64,000 nt of DNA from Aeromicrobium sp. Sec7.5 (GTDB lineage: Bacteria; Actinomycetota; Actinomycetes; Propionibacteriales; Nocardioidaceae): the NCBI RefSeq assembly GCF_036867135.1, contig NZ_JBAJIJ010000001.1, positions 2,170,001 through 2,234,000 on the forward strand, given 5' to 3'. The position numbers and the translations under genes were made by a program. Below are positions 26,668 through 36,759 of the stretch, one piece after another. The notes under the pieces were generated by a model. It did not search any database, was not told the DNA's origin, and worked only from the letters and a program-made list of their open reading frames with translations. How positions within the stretch are numbered: position 1 is the stretch's first letter; each line of letters opens with the position of its first letter.

Positions 26668-27051
26668 ATGTGATCAGAAGCCTGTCCCGGACTACTTCAA
26701 CTCTCGGGTCCCCTTGGAAAACCTCGGGTTCTTGAGGAGGTTCCCCATCGGACGCCTCCAACTGTATCGGAACGTCTCGGGACAGTTGCCTATCGTTTCT
26801 GATGATCTTCTGATGACGTGTTGAATCTCTGGCCGGCTAGGATCGCTCGACTCAGACCGACAACAACGGCGCCGTATACGTACATGGCTGGTGCTTCCGA
26901 CCCGTCGTTGACTCGGGTTTCAGCCCGAAGGTGAGATCCGGGGATGCGGCTCAGCAGGGCATGCCGTCCCAGCCGCTGGCTCCGTGATGCATTCCGGGAT
27001 TGTGGTCGCGGGACTGCCCCGAGTTTGGTTGACACTCGGGGTTTGTGCTGA

Positions 27052-27933
27052 TTAGGCCGCGGTTGCGGTCGTGTAGATCATCTCAAACTCGGTCGGGGTG
27101 AGCTTGCCGAGGGCGCGTTGTCGGCGTCGTCGGTTGTACTTGGTCTCGATCCAGCGGACCATCGCAAGGCGGAGTTCGTCGCGGGTGTCCCAGCGGCGGG
27201 TGTTGAGGACGTTCTTCTGCAGGAGGGCGAAGAAGCTCTCCATGCTCGCGTTGTCCCCGGCGCCGTAGGAGCGGCCCATCGAGCCGACCAGCCCATGGTT
27301 GGCCAAGAGGGCCTGGGTGCGTTTGGCCCTGAATTGACCGCCCCTGTCCGAATGACACACCGTGGCCTCTGGTGCGCGCAGCGCGATCGCGTTGCGCATC
27401 GCCGACTGCGCCAACGATGCCTTCATCCGGGTGTCGATGGAGTAGCCGACGATCCTGTTGGAGAAGACGTCCTTGATTGCGCAGATGTAGAGCTTGCCTT
27501 CGCGGGTGGGGTGTTCGGAGATGTCCCAGAGCCAGACCTTGTTCGGGGCGTCGGCGACGAACTCGTGCCGGACGACACCGTGCTCGTCGACCACGGCCAG
27601 AAGGTCGTCGTGCGGCGGCGGCCCGGTGCTGCCGGCCTTGGACCGCTTCTTGTGGTGCGAGGCGGTGATGCCAGCGACCTGACAGAGCCGGTGGACGCGG
27701 TTCTCACCGACAGTGATGCCGTGCTCATCGGCGAGCTCGTCGGTCAGGAACCGGTAGCCCAACGTGGCGTCGTCCTCGTGGAGGTCGTAGAGCACGTCGA
27801 TGAGGTGCGCGTCGTCGAAGTCACGCTGGCTGACGGGGTCCTTGAGCCACTTGTAGTACCCCTGGGTCGAGAGCCCCAGGACCCTGCTCGCCACCGCGAC
27901 CGGCACCCGAACAGGGGCGCCGGCCGCGGCCAT
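27052..27933 (-). CDS. IS3-family transposase OrfB (DDE catalytic domain)
   Basis: This 293-residue reading is in the -1 frame relative to orfA and is expected as the C-terminal part of an OrfAB fusion. It contains the HTH_21 region (YRFLTDELADEHGITVGENRVHRL) and an rve domain. The catalytic DDE residues are in VWLWDISEHP (D), ICHSDRGGQF-like VCHSDRGGQFRA (D) and NASMESFFALLQ (E). All catalytic residues are present. Confidence 0.92.
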   Translation of the reverse strand: MAAAGAPVRVPVAVASRVLGLSTQGYYKWLKDPVSQRDFDDAHLIDVLYDLHEDDATLGYRFLTDELADEHGITVGENRVHRLCQVAGITASHHKKRSKAGSTGPPPHDDLLAVVDEHGVVRHEFVADAPNKVWLWDISEHPTREGKLYICAIKDVFSNRIVGYSIDTRMKASLAQSAMRNAIALRAPEATVCHSDRGGQFRAKRTQALLANHGLVGSMGRSYGAGDNASMESFFALLQKNVLNTRRWDTRDELRLAMVRWIETKYNRRRRQRALGKLTPTEFEMIYTTATAA

Positions 27934-27953
27934 CTCGCGGACGAGCGGGAAGG

Positions 27954-28241
27954 CTATTTTCCCGGCAGATTAGCCTGCGACAGATACGCCGCAGCCCGCC
28001 GCAGGACCTCGTTTTCCTGCTCGAGCAGCCGGATCCGCTTCTTGGCCTCACGCAGCTCGGCACGGTCGGCCTCGGTCAGCCCGGGCCGGTGACCGTCCTC
28101 GATGTCGGCCTTCTTCAACCAGTTCGACAGGGTCCCTTCAGAGATCCCGAAGTCCTTGGCGATCTGCGACAACGGAGCCTGGCCCTGACGGGCCACAGCC
28201 ACGACATCGTCGCGGAACTCCTTGGGATAGGGCGCTGGCAT
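27954..28241 (-). CDS. IS3-family transposase OrfA (helix-turn-helix and leucine zipper)
   Basis: The 95-residue protein has HTH LSQIAKDFGISEGTLSNWLKKADIE and a C-terminal leucine zipper LREAKKRIRLLEQENEVLRRAAAYL. It ends CCG GGA AAA TAG; slipping back one base on the A run joins it to IAFPLVREMAAAG of OrfB. OrfA binds the IS ends and OrfAB is the transposase. Confidence 0.92.
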   Translation of the reverse strand: MPAPYPKEFRDDVVAVARQGQAPLSQIAKDFGISEGTLSNWLKKADIEDGHRPGLTEADRAELREAKKRIRLLEQENEVLRRAAAYLSQANLPGK

Positions 28242-28539
28242 GGCGACATCCTCTCCTGCGAGGAACGAATCCTCACACGTCAGGTGTCAACCAAACCGGG
28301 GGCAGTCCCCGCCGCTAAGTCCCATGGTCTGAGCACAGGTGGATACGTGTTGGCCGAAGTTCCCCGACCCTGGATCCGCCTGCGCGGCGCTCGGCAGAGC
28401 GATGAGCAGGCCGATTGCGAACGGAAGTGCGACGAGGGTGGTCTTGGTCATGTCTGATGTCCTTCGATACCCGAGAGAGGCCGACTGCCCGCTCTCGTTG
28501 AGGTCCGCTCGCGACTTATGCCGCGAGAACGTCGCCGGC

Positions 28540-28812
28540 TCAGCGTTTGCTACCGAGCAGGACGGCCTTACGTGCTTCGTACTCCTCGTTCTCGAGCTCG
28601 CCGCGGGCGAAACGCTCGTCGAGGATGTCCATCGGGTCACGGTGAGCCGTCTGGTTGATCGGCGCGCTGTTGCGGTCGCCGCGACCGTTGCTGGTGCCTC
28701 GGAAGATCATGATGCCGGCGAAGATCACGGCGCCCCAGAACAGGCTCATCATCAGGATCATCGCGATCCAGTTCCCGGTGTCCATGCCTCCGTTGTTGTA
28801 CCAACCCATCAT
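28540..28812 (-). CDS. Small membrane protein with C-terminal SHOCT domain
   Basis: The 90-residue protein has one long hydrophobic helix (WIAMILMMSLFWGAVIFAGIMIF, about 15-37), a short linker, and the SHOCT motif DPMDILDERFARGELENEEYEARKAVL. AAGGAG lies 9 bp before the first ATG. SHOCT proteins are oligomerising membrane-associated proteins that recur beside metal-response systems. It is divergent from the response-regulator gene, and the intergenic region carries one of the three CTTCAC direct repeats in the orientation reading towards this gene. Confidence 0.87.
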   Translation of the reverse strand: MMGWYNNGGMDTGNWIAMILMMSLFWGAVIFAGIMIFRGTSNGRGDRNSAPINQTAHRDPMDILDERFARGELENEEYEARKAVLLGSKR

Positions 28813-28878
28813 TGTGCTCAGCTCCTTGGTTGTTCGTTGTCTCCACTGTGCTCTCCGGACCACGGCTGCCCGGTCGTG

Positions 28879-28900
28879 GTTCTGTGAAGGTTCACTGAAG
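28879..28900 (-). promoter_or_regulatory. Putative OmpR-type regulator site, 11-bp direct repeat
   Basis: On the minus strand CTTCAG-tgaac-CTTCAC places two CTTCA half-sites exactly 11 bp apart (28900-28895 and 28889-28884). The same arrangement is found at 30885 and 31649. It lies between the SHOCT gene and the two-component operon and may control either or both. Confidence 0.7.
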
Positions 28901-28952
28901 AAGTGGTCCACTGCCGTGCAGGGCGTGATCCCAGCTGCTCTCGGCTGGCACC

Positions 28953-29741
28953 ATGAAGGCCATGTCCAACCCCAACGCTGCCGAGCCCACGGTCCAGGTG
29001 GCGGAGGCGACGGCGTCGTCCCAGCGGCCACCATCTGGCATGCGGGCCTTGGTGGTGGAGGACGAAACCTCGTTGGCGAACCTGATCGGTAGCTACTTCG
29101 AGCGCGACGGGTTCGAGGCCTCCATCAGCCACGACGGCCTACAGGCGGTGGCGCTTGCCCGCGAGGTCGATCCCGACGTCGTTGTCCTCGACCTGGGGTT
29201 GCCGAGCCTGGACGGGGTCGAGGTCTGTCGTCAGATCCGGACCTTCTCGGATGCGTACGTCGTGATGCTCACCGCGCGCAGCGACGAGATCGACACCCTG
29301 ATCGGCCTTTCTGTCGGCGCCGACGACTACCTGACCAAGCCGTTCAGTCCCCGCGTATTAATGGCACGGGTGCACGCGATGCTGCGCCGTCCCAGACAGT
29401 CACGAGAGCTCGCCGACCCCGGTGACCCCCTGGCCGAGGTGCGGACATTTGGCGCCTTGAGCATCGATACCGACGGGCGCGATGTCTGGCTCGACGGCGT
29501 ACCCGTCGCTCTCACCCGGACCGAGTTCGACCTGCTGGCGGCATTGTCGGCCCGCCCCCGGATGGCCTTCAGCCGGCGCCAGCTCATCGACGACGTCTGG
29601 GGCCCCTCCTGGGTCGGGGACGAGCACCTGGTCGACGTCCACATCGGCCACCTGCGCCGCAAACTTGGCGACGACGCAGCGGACAGCCTCTACGTCCGCA
29701 CGGTGCGCGGCGTTGGCTACCGGATGGGAACTGGCCAGTGA
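28953..29741 (+). CDS. OmpR/PhoB-type response regulator, probably metal-responsive
   Basis: The 262-residue regulator has an N-terminal extension of about 29 residues. A receiver follows (MRALVVEDETSLANL, phospho-Asp in DVVVLDLGLPSLDG, T in VMLTARS, K in DDYLTKPFSP). The winged helix is LTRTEFDLLAALSARPRMAFSRRQLIDDVWG...HIGHLRRKLGDD..VRTVRGVGYRM. The start is uncertain (28953, 28962 or 29040). It overlaps the kinase gene by 4 bp. The oxidase and DUF305 genes downstream carry putative binding sites, so copper or a related metal is the likely signal. Confidence 0.9.
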   Translation: MKAMSNPNAAEPTVQVAEATASSQRPPSGMRALVVEDETSLANLIGSYFERDGFEASISHDGLQAVALAREVDPDVVVLDLGLPSLDGVEVCRQIRTFSDAYVVMLTARSDEIDTLIGLSVGADDYLTKPFSPRVLMARVHAMLRRPRQSRELADPGDPLAEVRTFGALSIDTDGRDVWLDGVPVALTRTEFDLLAALSARPRMAFSRRQLIDDVWGPSWVGDEHLVDVHIGHLRRKLGDDAADSLYVRTVRGVGYRMGTGQ

Positions 29742-30850
29742 GCGCCGAAGGCCGAGTGCGGTGGGGTTTCGCCTCGCGCCTCCTCTCGGCCCAAGCCTTG
29801 GTGCTCGTCGCTGGAGCCGTGACGACGTGGGTCGTCGCGTCATTCGTTGGGCCGAGCATCTTCCGTGACCACCTGCACCGGGCCGGGGTCTCACACACGT
29901 CGGCCGAGGGCCGGCACGTCGAGGAGGCCTTCAGGGCTGCCCTGCTGATCTCGATCTCGGTCGCGCTCCTGGCCGCAACCATCACCGCGCTGGCAGTGAC
30001 GTGGTACTTCACCCGCCGCGTGAAGCGTTCGATCGGCCAGGTGGCCTCGGCGGCCTCCGAGGTCGCTGCCGGACGCTACGACGATCGGGTTGCCGACCCC
30101 GGTCTCGGAGTCGAGTTCGCCACGCTCGCCGACAGCTACAACTCTCTGGCCCAGCGGCTCGGGAACGTTGAGGGGATTCGGCGGCGGATGCTTGCTGACC
30201 TCGCCCACGAGATGCGGACCCCCCTGGCGACCGTGGAGGCACATCTGGAGGCCGTCGAGGACGGCGTCCGCAGCCTTGATGAGGACACCCTCACCGTGAT
30301 CCGCCTCAGCACCCGCAGACTCGGCCGACTCGCCGAAGACATCGCAGCGGTCTCCCAGGCAGAAGAGGGCACCCTCGACATCCACCGACAAGCCATCGAG
30401 GCAAGCGCCTTGGCCTCGGCAGCATCCGAGGGTGCCCAAGACCGCTTCACGGCGAAGGGCGTCCATCTCGGCACCCACCTGAACACTCACGACTCGGTGC
30501 TGGCTGACCCGGACCGCATCGGCCAGGTCCTGAGCAACCTGCTCGACAACGCCCTGCGTCACACCCCGACCGGGGGCAGCGTCACGCTGGGCTGCCGCCG
30601 CCACGACCGATGGGTCGAGTTCGTGATCGCCGACTCCGGGGAAGGCATCGCACCCGAGCACCTGGCCCATGTCTTCGACCGGTTCTACCGGGTCGACACA
30701 GCCCGGGATCGCAACCGAGGCGGCTCTGGAATCGGGCTGAGCATCAGCAAGGCCCTCGTCGAGGCGCATGGCGGCACCCTCACCGCGCTCAGTTCCGGCC
30801 CTGGACACGGCGCGACGTTCACTGTGCGGTTGGCCCCGGCCAACCGGTAG
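29738..30850 (+). CDS. Sensor histidine kinase partner of the OmpR-type regulator
   Basis: The 370-residue kinase has two membrane helices (about 10-35 and 68-90) enclosing a short sensor loop of about 33 residues, then a HAMP-like region. The HisKA box is RRMLADLAHEMRTPLATVEAHLEAVEDG, and the ATPase has N (NLLDNALRHTP), G1 (DSGEGI) and G2 (GSGIGLSISKALVEAHGG) boxes. Start is GTG at 29738 in GTGA overlap with the regulator stop. The extracytoplasmic loop is too short for a full periplasmic domain and includes His residues that could bind metal. Confidence 0.9.
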   Translation: MSAEGRVRWGFASRLLSAQALVLVAGAVTTWVVASFVGPSIFRDHLHRAGVSHTSAEGRHVEEAFRAALLISISVALLAATITALAVTWYFTRRVKRSIGQVASAASEVAAGRYDDRVADPGLGVEFATLADSYNSLAQRLGNVEGIRRRMLADLAHEMRTPLATVEAHLEAVEDGVRSLDEDTLTVIRLSTRRLGRLAEDIAAVSQAEEGTLDIHRQAIEASALASAASEGAQDRFTAKGVHLGTHLNTHDSVLADPDRIGQVLSNLLDNALRHTPTGGSVTLGCRRHDRWVEFVIADSGEGIAPEHLAHVFDRFYRVDTARDRNRGGSGIGLSISKALVEAHGGTLTALSSGPGHGATFTVRLAPANR

Positions 30851-30884
30851 CCAGCGCGAGTTCGACCCGACGCCGGGCGCCGCT

Positions 30885-30906
30885 CTTCAGCGAATCTTCA
30901 CAAGAT
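30885..30906 (+). promoter_or_regulatory. Putative OmpR-type regulator site upstream of the DUF305 lipoprotein gene
   Basis: CTTCAG-cgaat-CTTCAC has half-sites at 30885-30890 and 30896-30901, 11 bp apart, about 130 bp before the lipoprotein start codon. Confidence 0.72.
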
Positions 30907-31036
30907 CTCCGCCGGATCCCCGGGCCACGCACGTCAGGCTTTGAAGGCCGAGCGAACAGTTCGGCGCGCACCTGACATGTCGCCGGGATCCACAGCTCTG
31001 GCGGCCGAACCCGACCACTCAGCAGGAGACACCTCG

Positions 31037-31618
31037 ATGAAGAAGGCGCTCGGCGTCACGGCTCTCACCGTCGCAGTCACGCTCGCCCTCGCCGGATGCG
31101 GGAGCAATGACACGACTGGCTCCAGCGCCAGCACGGGTGGTCACAACCAGCAGGACGTCGCGTTCGCGACTGACATGATTCCGCACCACCTGCAGGCCGT
31201 GCAGATGGCCGAGATGGCTCAGACCCAAGCCTCATCGAACGACGTGAAGACCCTGGCCGATCAGATGAAGGCCGCCCAGGGCCCCGAGATCGACACCATG
31301 ACGCAGTGGTTGAAGAGTTGGGGCGAGGACGTCCCGGATGAGTCGATGGGTGGCATGGACGGCATGGACTCGGGAAGCAACGACAGCATGCCGGGGATGA
31401 TGTCGGACCAGGCCATGAGCGAGCTCGGCGCCGCGACCGGCGACACCTTCGACCAGATGTGGCTCGAGTCGATGATTGCCCACCACGAAGGCGCCGTGCA
31501 GATGGCCGACACCGAGATCGCCGACGGCAAGGACCCCGATACCGTCGCTCTCGCGAAGTCGATCAAGGCTGCACAGACGACCGAGATCGCCACGATGAAG
31601 AAGATGCTCACGCCCTGA
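31037..31618 (+). CDS. DUF305 lipoprotein
   Basis: The 193-residue lipoprotein has a lipobox in LALAGCGS. Two DUF305 half-motifs follow, each with a His pair: DMIPHHLQAVQMAEM (about 48-62) and MIAHHEGAVQMADTE (about 148-162). A Met/Asp/Gly-rich linker sits between them (SMGGMDGMDSGSNDSMPGMM). His and Met content suggests extracytoplasmic copper binding, and DUF305 genes recur with copper systems in actinobacteria. AGGAG lies 10 bp upstream of the ATG. Confidence 0.9.
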   Translation: MKKALGVTALTVAVTLALAGCGSNDTTGSSASTGGHNQQDVAFATDMIPHHLQAVQMAEMAQTQASSNDVKTLADQMKAAQGPEIDTMTQWLKSWGEDVPDESMGGMDGMDSGSNDSMPGMMSDQAMSELGAATGDTFDQMWLESMIAHHEGAVQMADTEIADGKDPDTVALAKSIKAAQTTEIATMKKMLTP

Positions 31619-31648
31619 CCGTTGAGCGAACCGCTGCACCCTGTGGAC

Positions 31649-31670
31649 CTTCGTCAGATCTTCACCAAAC
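31649..31670 (+). promoter_or_regulatory. Putative OmpR-type regulator site upstream of the multicopper oxidase gene
   Basis: CTTCGT-cagat-CTTCAC has half-sites at 31649-31654 and 31660-31665, again 11 bp apart, about 95 bp before the oxidase start codon. A C-to-A shift at the first half-site is the only departure from the other copies. Confidence 0.7.
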
Positions 31671-31760
31671 CAGGGTCAGAAGTCGAAGCGAACAAATCAC
31701 GATGGTGGGTGTGGTGATCCGGCTTCCATGAGGGATCCGGCGTCGACTTGGAGGAAACCC

Positions 31761-33224
31761 ATGCAGGAGATCTCGCGCCGCGGTCTGTTCCTCGGCGGGC
31801 TGGCGGTCGCCGGGACCGGCGCCCTGGCCGCATGCTCAAACGGGCCCGGGACAGCACAGACGAACTTCGCCACACCCTCACGCCTGCGGCCTCTCGCGGG
31901 CCAACGAGTGGTGCAGCACCAGCTGACCGCCAAGGCGACATCGCTGGACCTGGGCGGCACCACGGTCGACACCTGGGCGTTCGGTGACACCGCACCAGGG
32001 CCGCTGATCCGCGCCACAGCTGGTGACATGTTGCGGATCCAGGTCGACAACCAGCTTCCGACTGACACTACGGTGCACTGGCACGGCATCGCGTTGCGCA
32101 ACGTCGCGGACGGGGTTCCTGGCCTGACTCAGGATCCGATCGCTGCCGGCTCGTCGTATCTCTACGAGTTCACTGCTCCGGATCCCGGCACATATTTCTA
32201 CCACCCCCATGTCGGAGTCCAGCTCGACCGCGGCCTCTACGGACCGCTGATCATCGACGACCCCCACGAGCCGGGCGACTACGACTTGGAGTGGGTGGTC
32301 GTACTCGACGACTGGGTCGACGGCACCAGCCGCACCCCCGACGACGTGCTGGCCGACCTCACCGGCATGTCCGGAGACGACACGGGCTCCATGGGCGGGA
32401 TGGACATGGGCGGGATGTCGATGGGCGGCGACCCGCCCTTCGGTGACGCCGGCGACGTGACCTATCCCCACTACCTGATCAACGGCCGCGTCCCGACCTC
32501 CCCCGACGTGCTGCGTGGCAAGCCCGGACAGCGGGTCCGACTACGGATCATTAACGCCGGTTCTGACACCATCTTCACCCTCGCTCTGAGCGGTCACCGT
32601 CTCACCGTCACCCACACCGACGGGTTCGCGGTCCAGCCCCGGGACGTCGGTGCTCTCTACCTCGGGATGGGCGAACGGTACGACGCCACCGTCACCCTCG
32701 GCGACGGCGTGTTTCCGCTCATCGCGGCGCCGTACGGCAAGGAAGGCCAAGCCATGGCGCTGATCCGGACCGGATCCGGTGCCGCACCAGACCCCGCCAT
32801 CCAGATCGCCGAGCTAACCGGCCCCATCCTCCAGGGCGCCGACCTCCAGCCAACGCAGGCGTCACGACTCTCAACCAGGGAACCGGACTCCACCCAGATG
32901 GTGCATCTGAGCGGCCAGATGGCGCCGTACCGGTGGGCCATCAACGGAGCCCCCTACGGCGAGAACGACCCCCTCCTGATCAACGAGGGCGACCGGGTCC
33001 GCCTGGAGCTGATGAACATGACCCAGATGACCCACCCGATGCACATCCACGGCCACACGTTCGCGCTGCCCAGCGGGCTGAGGAAGGACACCGTCCTGAT
33101 CAAGCCGATGTCCTCGCTCGCGGTGGACCTGCAGGCCGACAACCCCGGCAACTGGATGACCCACTGCCACAACATCTACCACGCCGAGGCCGGCATGATG
33201 ATCGCCCTCAAATACCGGACCTGA
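31761..33224 (+). CDS. Multicopper oxidase, Tat-exported lipoprotein
   Basis: The 487-residue protein has a Tat signal (SRRGLFLGGLAVAGTGALAAC) ending in a lipobox Cys. The three cupredoxin domains carry all four copper motifs: HWHG (about 107), YHPHVG (about 147), THPMHIHGHTF (about 425) and MTHCHNIYHAEAGMM with the T1 Cys-His-Met. A Met-rich insert (MGGMDMGGMSMGG) near residue 210 resembles those of CueO/CopA cuprous oxidases. Likely role: oxidation of Cu(I) at the outer face of the membrane. GAGGAAACCC precedes the ATG. Confidence 0.93.
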   Translation: MQEISRRGLFLGGLAVAGTGALAACSNGPGTAQTNFATPSRLRPLAGQRVVQHQLTAKATSLDLGGTTVDTWAFGDTAPGPLIRATAGDMLRIQVDNQLPTDTTVHWHGIALRNVADGVPGLTQDPIAAGSSYLYEFTAPDPGTYFYHPHVGVQLDRGLYGPLIIDDPHEPGDYDLEWVVVLDDWVDGTSRTPDDVLADLTGMSGDDTGSMGGMDMGGMSMGGDPPFGDAGDVTYPHYLINGRVPTSPDVLRGKPGQRVRLRIINAGSDTIFTLALSGHRLTVTHTDGFAVQPRDVGALYLGMGERYDATVTLGDGVFPLIAAPYGKEGQAMALIRTGSGAAPDPAIQIAELTGPILQGADLQPTQASRLSTREPDSTQMVHLSGQMAPYRWAINGAPYGENDPLLINEGDRVRLELMNMTQMTHPMHIHGHTFALPSGLRKDTVLIKPMSSLAVDLQADNPGNWMTHCHNIYHAEAGMMIALKYRT

Positions 33225-33274
33225 CCCCGATGTTGGCAATTGGGCCACCAACCACATAGGGGCATGCTCATCTC

Positions 33275-35632
33275 ATGACCCGTGACACCGAGGACCGGAC
33301 AATGAACCCATCGCCTCAGCTTGTGAAGGACCCCGTTTGTGGCATGGACGTGGACAGTCTGACGACCGAGCACAGTCTGGAACACGAGGGTTCGACGTAT
33401 CACTTCTGCTCGGCGCACTGCCGGGCGAAGTTCGAGGCGAACCCGGGTGACTTCCTCAACCCGCCGACCGTGCCGACAGCCCCGGACGCTGAGGCGGACG
33501 GCGCAGTGGACGGAGCCGTGGAGTACACGTGCCCCATGCACCCGGAGATCCGGCAACCTGGACCGGGCGCGTGTCCGATCTGCGGTATGGCGCTTGAACC
33601 CGTCACGGTGACTGCCGACACCGGCCCCAGCCCCGAGTTGGCCGACATGACCCGGCGGTTCTGGATCGGCCTGGTCTTGTCGGTCCCGGTGCTCATCCTC
33701 GAAATGGGCGCCCACCTGGTTCCGGCGCTGGACGACCTGGTCAGTCCGACGGCCTCGACCTGGATCCAGTTCGTCCTGGCGACCCCGGTCGTGTTGTGGG
33801 CCGGCTGGCCGTTCTTCACCCGGGGATGGACCTCGGTACGCACGATGCAGCTCAACATGTTCACCCTGATCGCGATCGGCACCGGTGTCGCCTGGCTCTA
33901 CAGCGTGGTCGCCACGTTCGCGCCGGGCGCCTTCCCCGAGGCGTTCCGCAGTATGGGCGGCACCGTCGATGTGTACTTCGAGGCCGCCGCTGTCATCACC
34001 GTGCTGGTGCTGCTCGGCCAGGTTCTGGAGCTGAGGGCCAGGGAGCAGACCTCGGGAGCGATCAAGGCCCTCTTGGACCTCACCCCCAAGACCGCGCACC
34101 GGATCACCGATGACGCTGGCGAGGAGGACGTGAGCCTGGAGGTGGTGCAGATCGGCGACCGACTGCGTGTCCGCCCCGGCGAGAAGGTCCCCGTCGACGG
34201 CATCGTCGAGGACGGTCGTTCCTCCCTCGATGAGTCCCTGGTCACCGGGGAGTCCATGCCCGTCACCAAGACCACCGGCGACACCGTCATCGGCGGCACC
34301 CTGAACCAGACCGGGTCCCTGGTCGTCCGAGCCGACAAGATCGGCCGCGACACGATGCTGGCCCGCATCGTCCAGATGGTCGCCGAAGCCCAACGCTCCC
34401 GCGCACCGATCCAGCGGATGGCAGACCGAGTCGCAGCCTGGTTCGTGCCCGCGGTCCTCGGTGTGGCCCTGCTCGCGTTCATCGCCTGGGCCGCCATCGG
34501 GCCGGACCCCCGCCTGGCTCACGCCCTCATCGCCGCCGTGTCGGTCCTGATCATCGCCTGCCCCTGCGCACTGGGACTGGCCACACCGATGTCGATCATG
34601 GTGGGGGTGGGCCGAGGAGCCGGCGAAGGTGTCCTGATCAAGAACGCCGAGGCGCTCGAACTCATGGAGAAGGTCGACACCCTGGTCGTCGACAAAACCG
34701 GCACGCTGACCGAGGGACGCCCCTCGGTCACTCAGATCGTCGCGGCCCCAGGCTTCGACCGCGACAGTCTGCTCAGACTCGCCGCGGGCGTCGAGAGCGC
34801 CTCAGAACACCCCCTCGGCAGAGCAGTCGTGGAAGCAGCAAACGCCGCCGGCCTCACCATCCCAGAGGTCACCGACTTCGACTCCCCCACCGGCAAGGGC
34901 GCCCTCGGCACCGTCGAGAGCCAGCAGGTGGTCCTGGGCAGCGCGGGGTTCCTATCCAGCCACGACATGGACGCCACGTCCATGACCGAAGAGGCCGATG
35001 AACTCCGCGCCGATGGTGCCACCGCCATCTTCATGGGCGTTGAGGGGACCGTGGCTGGCATCTTCGCGATCGCCGACCCCATCAAGGACACCACCGCAGA
35101 CGCCCTGGCCGCGCTGCGGGACGAAGGGATCGAGGTGGTCATGCTGACCGGCGACAACCGGGTCACCGCTGAAGCGGTCGGACGACGCCTGGGCATCGAC
35201 CGGATCGAGGCCGAGGTCCTCCCCGACCACAAGAGCGACATCGTCAAGCAACTCCGCGACGAGGGACGAGTGGTCGCGATGGCCGGCGACGGCGTGAACG
35301 ACGCCCCCGCCCTGGCAGCTGCCGACGTCGGGCTGGCCATGAGCTCGGGGACCGACGTCGCGATGGAGAGCGCCGGAGTAACCCTGCTCAAGGGCGACCT
35401 GATCGGGATCGTGCGCGCCCGCAAGCTCTCCCAAGCCACCATGTCGAATATCCGCCAGAACCTCGTGTTCGCCTTCGCCTACAACACGGCCGGCATCCCC
35501 GTGGCCGCCGGAATCCTCTACCCCACCTTCGGGATGCTGCTCTCCCCGATCATCGCCGCCGCCGCCATGTCGCTGTCCTCGGTCAGCGTCATCACCAACG
35601 CCCTACGCCTACGAACGCGCAATCTGGGATAG
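33275..35632 (+). CDS. Copper-translocating P1B-type ATPase with YHS and heavy-metal-binding N-terminus
   Basis: The 785-residue P-type ATPase has an N-terminal YHS domain ([11 protein letters not shown]...[16 protein letters not shown]). A short metal-binding motif follows ([26 protein letters not shown]), then eight predicted helices. The metal motif is CPC ([13 protein letters not shown]), the phosphorylation site DKTGTLTEG, and the hinge [13 protein letters not shown]. The CPC motif points to Cu(I)/Ag(I) export. Start may be 33275 or the ATG at 33302. It lies 50 bp after the oxidase gene. Confidence 0.93.
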
Positions 35633-35751: not shown

Positions 35752-36759
35752 TCATAGTCCGAGGTCCTTGCTTGAGGTCGTGGCGAGCGCCTCCATGGGT
35801 CGGATGTAGCGGTTGACGAGGACGGAGATGTCTTTGTGGCGAGTTTGGGTGGCGATCCGGTGGAGTGGGACACCCGCGAGTGCTGCTTTGGTGGCGTGTC
35901 CGGCGCGTAGGGAGTGGGCGGTGATCCGGGTTCCATCGAGTCCAGCCGCGATGGCGCGTTCTCGGAGCATCCGGGCCACGACGTGGTTTCCGAGCGGCTG
36001 GTCGCTGATGCGGCTGCACCAGATCCGCGAGAACAGCGGGCCTGGCTGGTGGCCTCGGACCCTGAGCCACGCGCCTAGTGCGGCGACGGGGTCGGTGGCC
36101 GCGTGGCTGCCGTGGGCCACGGCCACGACCTGACCTTGACCCTCCTGGTCGGTCTTGGAGTGCCGGATGCTGAACAGGATGCCGCCCGGTTTGGTCTCGA
36201 CGTCGGCCAGGGTGAGGGCGACCAGTTCGGAGCCGCGCATGGCTGAGGCGTAGCCGAGCAGGATGATCGCGGCGTCGCGTGCTCCGATGGGGGTGCTGCG
36301 GTCGATCGCGGTGATGATCTGGCGGATCTCGGGGACGGTGAGCGGCCGCGCGAGGCGCCGCGGTGCGGTGCCATAGGTGCGGCGCAGGCCGAGGCGGACC
36401 TGGCGGACGAGCTCGTCCTCGGCTGGGTTGGCCAGGTCGCGCTGGCGGTGCATGTGCCGGATGGCGGTGCAGGCCATGTTGAGGGTGGCCACCGCGGTGC
36501 CGGTGGCGGCGCGTTCGACCAGGTAGGCGGCCAGCGCATGGGGGTCAGCCGGGAGCGCAGGGATACCTCGGCCTGCGCACCAGCGTTGCCAGACCCGCCA
36601 GGTGTGGGCGTAGAGGATGCGGGTGGATTCGGCATGGGCGGCGTCGAGCGCGGCAGCGATCCGCACTGCGTCGTCCACGGTCAGACCAACTGGGAGATCC
36701 TCCGAACGGCGTGAGGAGGACACGGTCACGGTGCGTGCGAGGGCGAGGGTGGTGGTCAT
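35752..36759 (-). CDS. Tyrosine recombinase/integrase, internal copy
   Basis: The 335-residue recombinase has an N-terminal SAM-like core-binding domain (about 25-115) and a catalytic domain. Its residues are Arg in YASAMRGSELVAL, Lys in RHSKTDQEG, His-x-x-Arg in AHSLRAGHAT, His in ATQTRHKDIS and Tyr in VNRYIRPME. It is a clear paralogue of the recombinase at 52692-53717: both end TSS(K/R)DLGL, with similarity along the whole length. No tRNA lies beside it, so it may mark an older integration or serve another site. Confidence 0.93.
   Translation of the reverse strand: MTTTLALARTVTVSSSRRSEDLPVGLTVDDAVRIAAALDAAHAESTRILYAHTWRVWQRWCAGRGIPALPADPHALAAYLVERAATGTAVATLNMACTAIRHMHRQRDLANPAEDELVRQVRLGLRRTYGTAPRRLARPLTVPEIRQIITAIDRSTPIGARDAAIILLGYASAMRGSELVALTLADVETKPGGILFSIRHSKTDQEGQGQVVAVAHGSHAATDPVAALGAWLRVRGHQPGPLFSRIWCSRISDQPLGNHVVARMLRERAIAAGLDGTRITAHSLRAGHATKAALAGVPLHRIATQTRHKDISVLVNRYIRPMEALATTSSKDLGL

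Follow-up and report, generated by a model that had tools for sequence, protein, structure and literature searches.

Three 11-bp-period CTTCA repeats as probable CopR operator boxes in a copper cluster of Aeromicrobium sp. Sec7.5

Three direct repeats in a copper cluster of Aeromicrobium sp. Sec7.5 very probably serve as operators for the OmpR-family regulator encoded next to them, which is orthologous to corynebacterial CopR. Comparison across related loci revealed a conserved operator-like element with a specific spacing and with links to both the regulator and copper genes. The sequence evidence supports naming the system as an actinobacterial CopRS copper-excess regulon. For Aeromicrobium sp. 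Sec7.5 itself, we infer binding, phosphorylation, copper as the signal, and activation. The window analyzed here is a 64,000-nucleotide stretch of the genome.

The regulator gene (28953..29741, plus strand) encodes a CopR-like response regulator with a receiver and a winged-helix domain (Response_reg, 1.5e-25; Trans_reg_C, 8e-25) and, by alignment, the phospho-acceptor Asp80. A search with this regulator found its closest named relatives in Aeromicrobium and Nocardioides, which fits the genus of the host. Directly downstream, with a 4-bp overlap, lies the gene of a CopS-like sensor histidine kinase containing HAMP, HisKA, and HATPase_c domains (29738..30850, plus strand). The same strand encodes a DUF305 protein of the CopM metallochaperone family with a lipoprotein-like leader (31037..31618; NF049983, 104.2 bits, cut-off 90), a CopO-like multicopper oxidase (31728..33224; translation could plausibly start at 31761 instead, after GGAGGA), and a copper P1B-type ATPase with YHS and HMBD domains (33275..35632; TIGR01511, 595 bits, cut-off 397). 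The ATPase gene has no box of its own, follows the oxidase gene after 50 bp, and is probably co-transcribed with it. Divergent from copR, a 90-aa SHOCT-domain membrane-type protein is encoded at 28540..28812 (minus strand). The domain content of these genes identifies the cluster as one for copper resistance. An earlier note on this DNA had described the repeats as adjoining genes of a metal cluster; this is borne out, and homology sharpens "metal" to copper.

The copper cluster includes, downstream of the SHOCT gene, a gene for a small secreted protein, which is interrupted by an IS element (27010-28309), IS3-like by appearance and with two ORFs on the minus strand (27954-28241 and 27052-27933). 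The 5' part of the interrupted gene lies at 28310..28451 (minus strand), and the rest, beyond the element, ends near 26950-27009. Nocardioides zhouii (L114) has this site without the insertion, and a 3-bp overlap suggests target duplication. A relative of the interrupted gene in Janibacter/Knoellia (L174, L180) carries its own CopR box. A tyrosine-recombinase gene (35752-36759) directly follows the ATPase gene, and the 89% DNA similarity to the cluster of a Nocardioides species is restricted to 26832-33229, as would fit a mobile block. The nearby integrase gene raised the possibility of a tRNA-borne integrative element, but this was rejected, as the edge of the cluster showed no tRNA.

Candidate box 1 (CTTCAGTGAACCTTCAC, 28884..28900, minus strand; as a 20-mer, ACTTCTTCA-GT-GAACCTTCA) is placed between the divergent copR and SHOCT genes and oriented toward the latter. 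Candidate box 2 (CTTCAGCGAATCTTCAC, 30885..30901, plus strand) lies upstream of the DUF305/CopM gene, and candidate box 3 (CTTCGTCAGATCTTCAC, 31649..31665, plus strand) upstream of the multicopper oxidase gene. All three repeats were found exactly at the coordinates and on the strands given in the earlier note. Its motif, CTTCAN-N5-CTTCAC, is exact in boxes 1 and 2, but box 3 deviates by one mismatch, its first half being the variant CTTCG, a point against the CopR-box reading. In each of the three sites, the full CTTCAC forms the second half only.

With one mismatch allowed, the window contained four matches compared to 0.43 expected from shuffles (0/100 shuffles reached four). Across the 3.42-Mb genome, CTTCR-N6-CTTCAC (11-bp period) matched exactly three times, always intergenically, between genes of one copper cluster and within 2.8 kb; the reversed pattern matched once. 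Words this short also turn up by chance in a GC-rich genome, and by our own estimate from base composition (about 67% GC), ~1.6 exact matches per genome are already to be expected. The raw genome count is therefore unremarkable, and the case for the boxes rests on their clustering in 2.8 kb and their conservation in relatives. The loose pattern search is likewise uninformative, because 21 genome-wide matches with one mismatch stood against 13 in the control, a near equality that also fits chance. When a narrower family consensus was searched with up to two mismatches, a single additional match appeared elsewhere in the genome, itself with two mismatches. Many copies in unrelated intergenic regions, the outcome named in the earlier note as speaking against its reading, were not seen genome-wide. 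Consensus scans for promoters and terminators yielded nothing useful; the boxes could not be related to the position of any promoter consensus, which counts against their role as operators.

We compared the cluster with its counterparts in N. zhouii, where DNA identity across the cluster is 89%, and in an Aeromicrobium MAG (82-83%). The footprint of box 1 is unbroken in both relatives (L114, L115), and box 2 lies within a 33-base stretch identical in N. zhouii. At box 3, CTTCGTCRGATCTTCA is conserved in both, and the box reads CTTCGTCGGATCTTCA in both, indicating that the CTTCG variant is maintained. These footprints bear on a reading in which CopR binds the boxes, with box 3 being a relic and box 2 driving the oxidase gene, or in which the boxes repress. 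The CTTCG half is compatible with a relic, and the DUF305-oxidase gap of only about 110-140 bp would permit read-through. However, the variant has been kept in two relatives, one of them at 83% DNA identity, and the orthologue that has been characterised activates its targets (PMC3140484), which argues against repression. We regard this reading as unlikely and prefer three boxes through which CopR would activate transcription.

Spacing was evaluated in a sample of 160 loci around related regulators by counting pairs of CTTCA separated by each gap length from 0 through 30. Pairs at period 11 numbered 147, compared to 0-9 elsewhere except at 23 (27 pairs) and 34 (23 pairs); a reversed control gave 3. 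Most of the signal at 23 and 34 is due to an additional CTTCA that follows boxes at a distance of 23 bp, chiefly at YgaP-like genes. At YgaP-like promoters of many Nocardioides (L076, L077, L116, L120), a further CTTCAC within GGTCACCTTCACC was observed 23 bp downstream of the CopR box. The more than tenfold enrichment of the 11-bp spacing, the location of all three boxes in 2.8 kb of intergenic DNA, and the identical footprints in diverged relatives leave chance a negligible probability. We rejected it on the spacing peak, the conserved footprints, and the link between box and regulator across genomes described below.

Removal of duplicates from the 160-locus set left 119 distinct boxes. None of them lies inside homologues of six cluster genes, which span 33% of the DNA (P 2e-21, overstated because related loci are not independent). 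At 35 loci, a box precedes copR by 26-81 bp, in most cases with a divergent SHOCT gene on its other side, and the position of box 1 is shared by about 40 relatives. All 11 boxes upstream of DUF305 genes point at the gene, as do those upstream of YgaP-like (12/12) and glutaredoxin-like (8/8) genes. Multicopper oxidase, Cu-ATPase, and csoR-like genes are also preceded by boxes in relatives. Outside the search pattern, conserved positions comprise AA at +8/+9 and an AA echo at +19/+20, the latter hinting at a weak third half-site.

The association between box and regulator was assessed by searching a stringent box, CTTCANNRAAYCTTCA, in 246 genomes of the host order, irrespective of any gene. Within the host family, the box occurred in 10/10 genomes with a close CopR orthologue, compared to 1/91 without (Fisher 6e-13). 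Family genomes with the orthologue harbored 2-5 boxes each, and by our own count 29/32 of these lie within about 6 kb of copR. Near-universal regulators such as PhoP or MtrA therefore cannot explain the boxes. Actinobacterial PhoP boxes are 11-nt direct repeats with a TTCAC core (GTTCACC). This similarity of core and period, together with several further OmpR-like regulators in the host, would suit the alternative that the repeats are PHO boxes or are bound by some other universal regulator of the OmpR family (PhoP, MtrA, RegX3). Yet almost every genome of the order has PhoP-type regulators, whereas only one of the 91 family genomes lacking a CopR orthologue has the box. The boxes adjoin copR and copper genes rather than phosphate genes, and the half-site starts with C, not G, in the window and in the matching Corynebacterium boxes, making sites of a universal regulator very improbable. 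Several Mycolicibacterium loci (e.g. L171-L173, L182-L184) have no recognisable box (CTTCA or CTTGA) upstream of copR, although their regulators are 65-70% identical, which counts against the CopR-box reading. The proposal that the repeats define a local regulon of the adjacent OmpR-type regulator is nonetheless supported as the best explanation: boxes track the regulator, they lie directly upstream of copR and copper genes in relatives, and they match the CopR box shown by EMSA and mutation in Corynebacterium glutamicum (PMC3140484).

The half-site itself drifts, as seen in the copR upstream regions of L034-L066 and L083-L101. Boxes at Rhodococcus/Nocardia copR read mostly CTTGA-N6-CTTCA, often accompanied by a degenerate third half-site that keeps the 11-bp register, and Propionibacteriaceae carry CTTGA-N6-CTTGA in place of CTTCA-N6-CTTCA. 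CTTGA pairs peak at gap 6 as well (54 distinct vs 0-8). The 11-bp architecture outlasts the exact half-site. A recognition-helix rule separating CTTCA from CTTGA (G232/H233 vs A232/N233) was rejected as phylogeny-confounded, and Corynebacterium breaks it (G, N with CTTCA). In Nocardioides, Tetrasphaera, and Knoellia, boxes were observed upstream of csoR-like repressor genes (PF02583; L079 11756, L117 9936, L125 9905, L155 9919, L169 7885, L185 7850), suggesting a two-tier copper circuit. We give even chances to a more general model, in which actinobacterial CopR boxes keep a rigid 11-bp head-to-tail arrangement around a core drifting between CTTCA and CTTGA, and in which Nocardioides and relatives have in addition captured the csoR-like gene. 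An extracytoplasmic copper sensor would then stand above a CsoR-family repressor, presumably a cytoplasmic copper sensor.

We hypothesize that extracytoplasmic copper excess activates the kinase CopS, and that phosphorylated CopR forms a head-to-tail dimer on two half-sites centred on CTTCA and spaced by one helical turn (11 bp). Bound CopR would promote transcription of the genes toward which the boxes read, namely those of the SHOCT protein, DUF305/CopM, and the multicopper oxidase. The Cu-ATPase gene would be activated by read-through, and transcription of copRS itself would be raised through the divergent box 1. The copper-resistance cluster, which is partly found on plasmids and spans Nocardioidaceae, Intrasporangiaceae, Rhodococcus, and Corynebacterium, thereby gains a named candidate regulator, a likely signal, and a putative operator code. 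A box characterised once in C. glutamicum can now be followed, with a predicted regulon, through dozens of species, offering a natural series for studying the joint drift of an OmpR-family regulator and its half-site.

Several known systems share features with the one described here. Proteobacterial CusR/CopR/SilR (TIGR01387) are likewise OmpR-type copper regulators controlling their own cluster. The window regulator scored 140.4 bits against this model (cztR/silR/copR), below the cut-off of 279.2, and is not a member; NCBIfam contains no equivalog for it. Streptomyces CutRS is also an actinobacterial OmpR-type two-component system, but CutR binds TAWATAAA and serves secretion stress (PMC12802291). 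Myxococcus CorSR, from a different phylum, exerts two-component control of a copper cluster, and its description mentions DUF305 and a multicopper oxidase (PMC3707914).

In C. glutamicum, CopRS is encoded by cg3285-cg3284, with TGAAGATTTnnTGAAGATTT as the CopR box, and CopR binds TGAAGATTTgaTGAAGATTT between copR and cg3286 (PMC3140484, PMC3353115). The box was established by EMSA and mutation, with three-base changes abolishing CopR binding (PMC3140484). Phosphorylation raises the affinity about sixfold, and CopR activates a copper cluster with the oxidase CopO and the ATPase CopB (PMC3140484, PMC3353115). The reverse complement of this box is AAATCTTCA-TC-AAATCTTCA, which recurs at the same place and in the same orientation at plasmid copR genes, in C. 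marinum pCmarinum1 and, with one change, in pLEW279b. On the latter plasmid (L195 6273), a gene for a four-helix-bundle copper-binding protein is preceded, at a distance of about 110 bp, by another CopR-type box, CTTCATGAAATCTTCA; only one box has been reported for C. glutamicum. We used C. marinum CopR as a stand-in for the C. glutamicum protein (240 aa and Asp63, as given in PMC3353115). It is only 53% identical to the window regulator, a point against the CopR reading, and the kinases are 46% identical over 358 aa. In a one-way search of the host with the C. marinum plasmid CopR, the window regulator was nevertheless the best match (252 bits, compared to 183 for the next).

Both systems combine an OmpR-type regulator with a HAMP kinase, and both have a 9-bp direct repeat with a 2-bp linker and an 11-bp period, the CTTCA core lying on the other strand of the C. 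glutamicum box. Both also place a box between copR and a divergent operon, have a multicopper oxidase and a Cu-ATPase in the neighbourhood, and confine the box to the copper cluster. Whereas C. glutamicum is reported to have one box per genome, a species trait rather than a defining one, the Aeromicrobium genome has three. The half-sites in the window are GC-richer (GAACCTTCA vs AAATCTTCA), the DUF305/CopM gene lies between kinase and oxidase, and the operon lacks a TlpA-like gene. The divergent partner is the SHOCT gene instead of cg3286 (CueP-like in related plasmids). We considered whether the SHOCT gene corresponds to an unproven 9-kDa ORF between cg3286 and copR and rejected this, as no SHOCT-like ORF was found in translated intergenic regions of three Corynebacterium plasmids and pLEW279b. 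The arrangement is thus of a known kind, already seen in Corynebacterium, with the three boxes and the SHOCT partner as modest differences.
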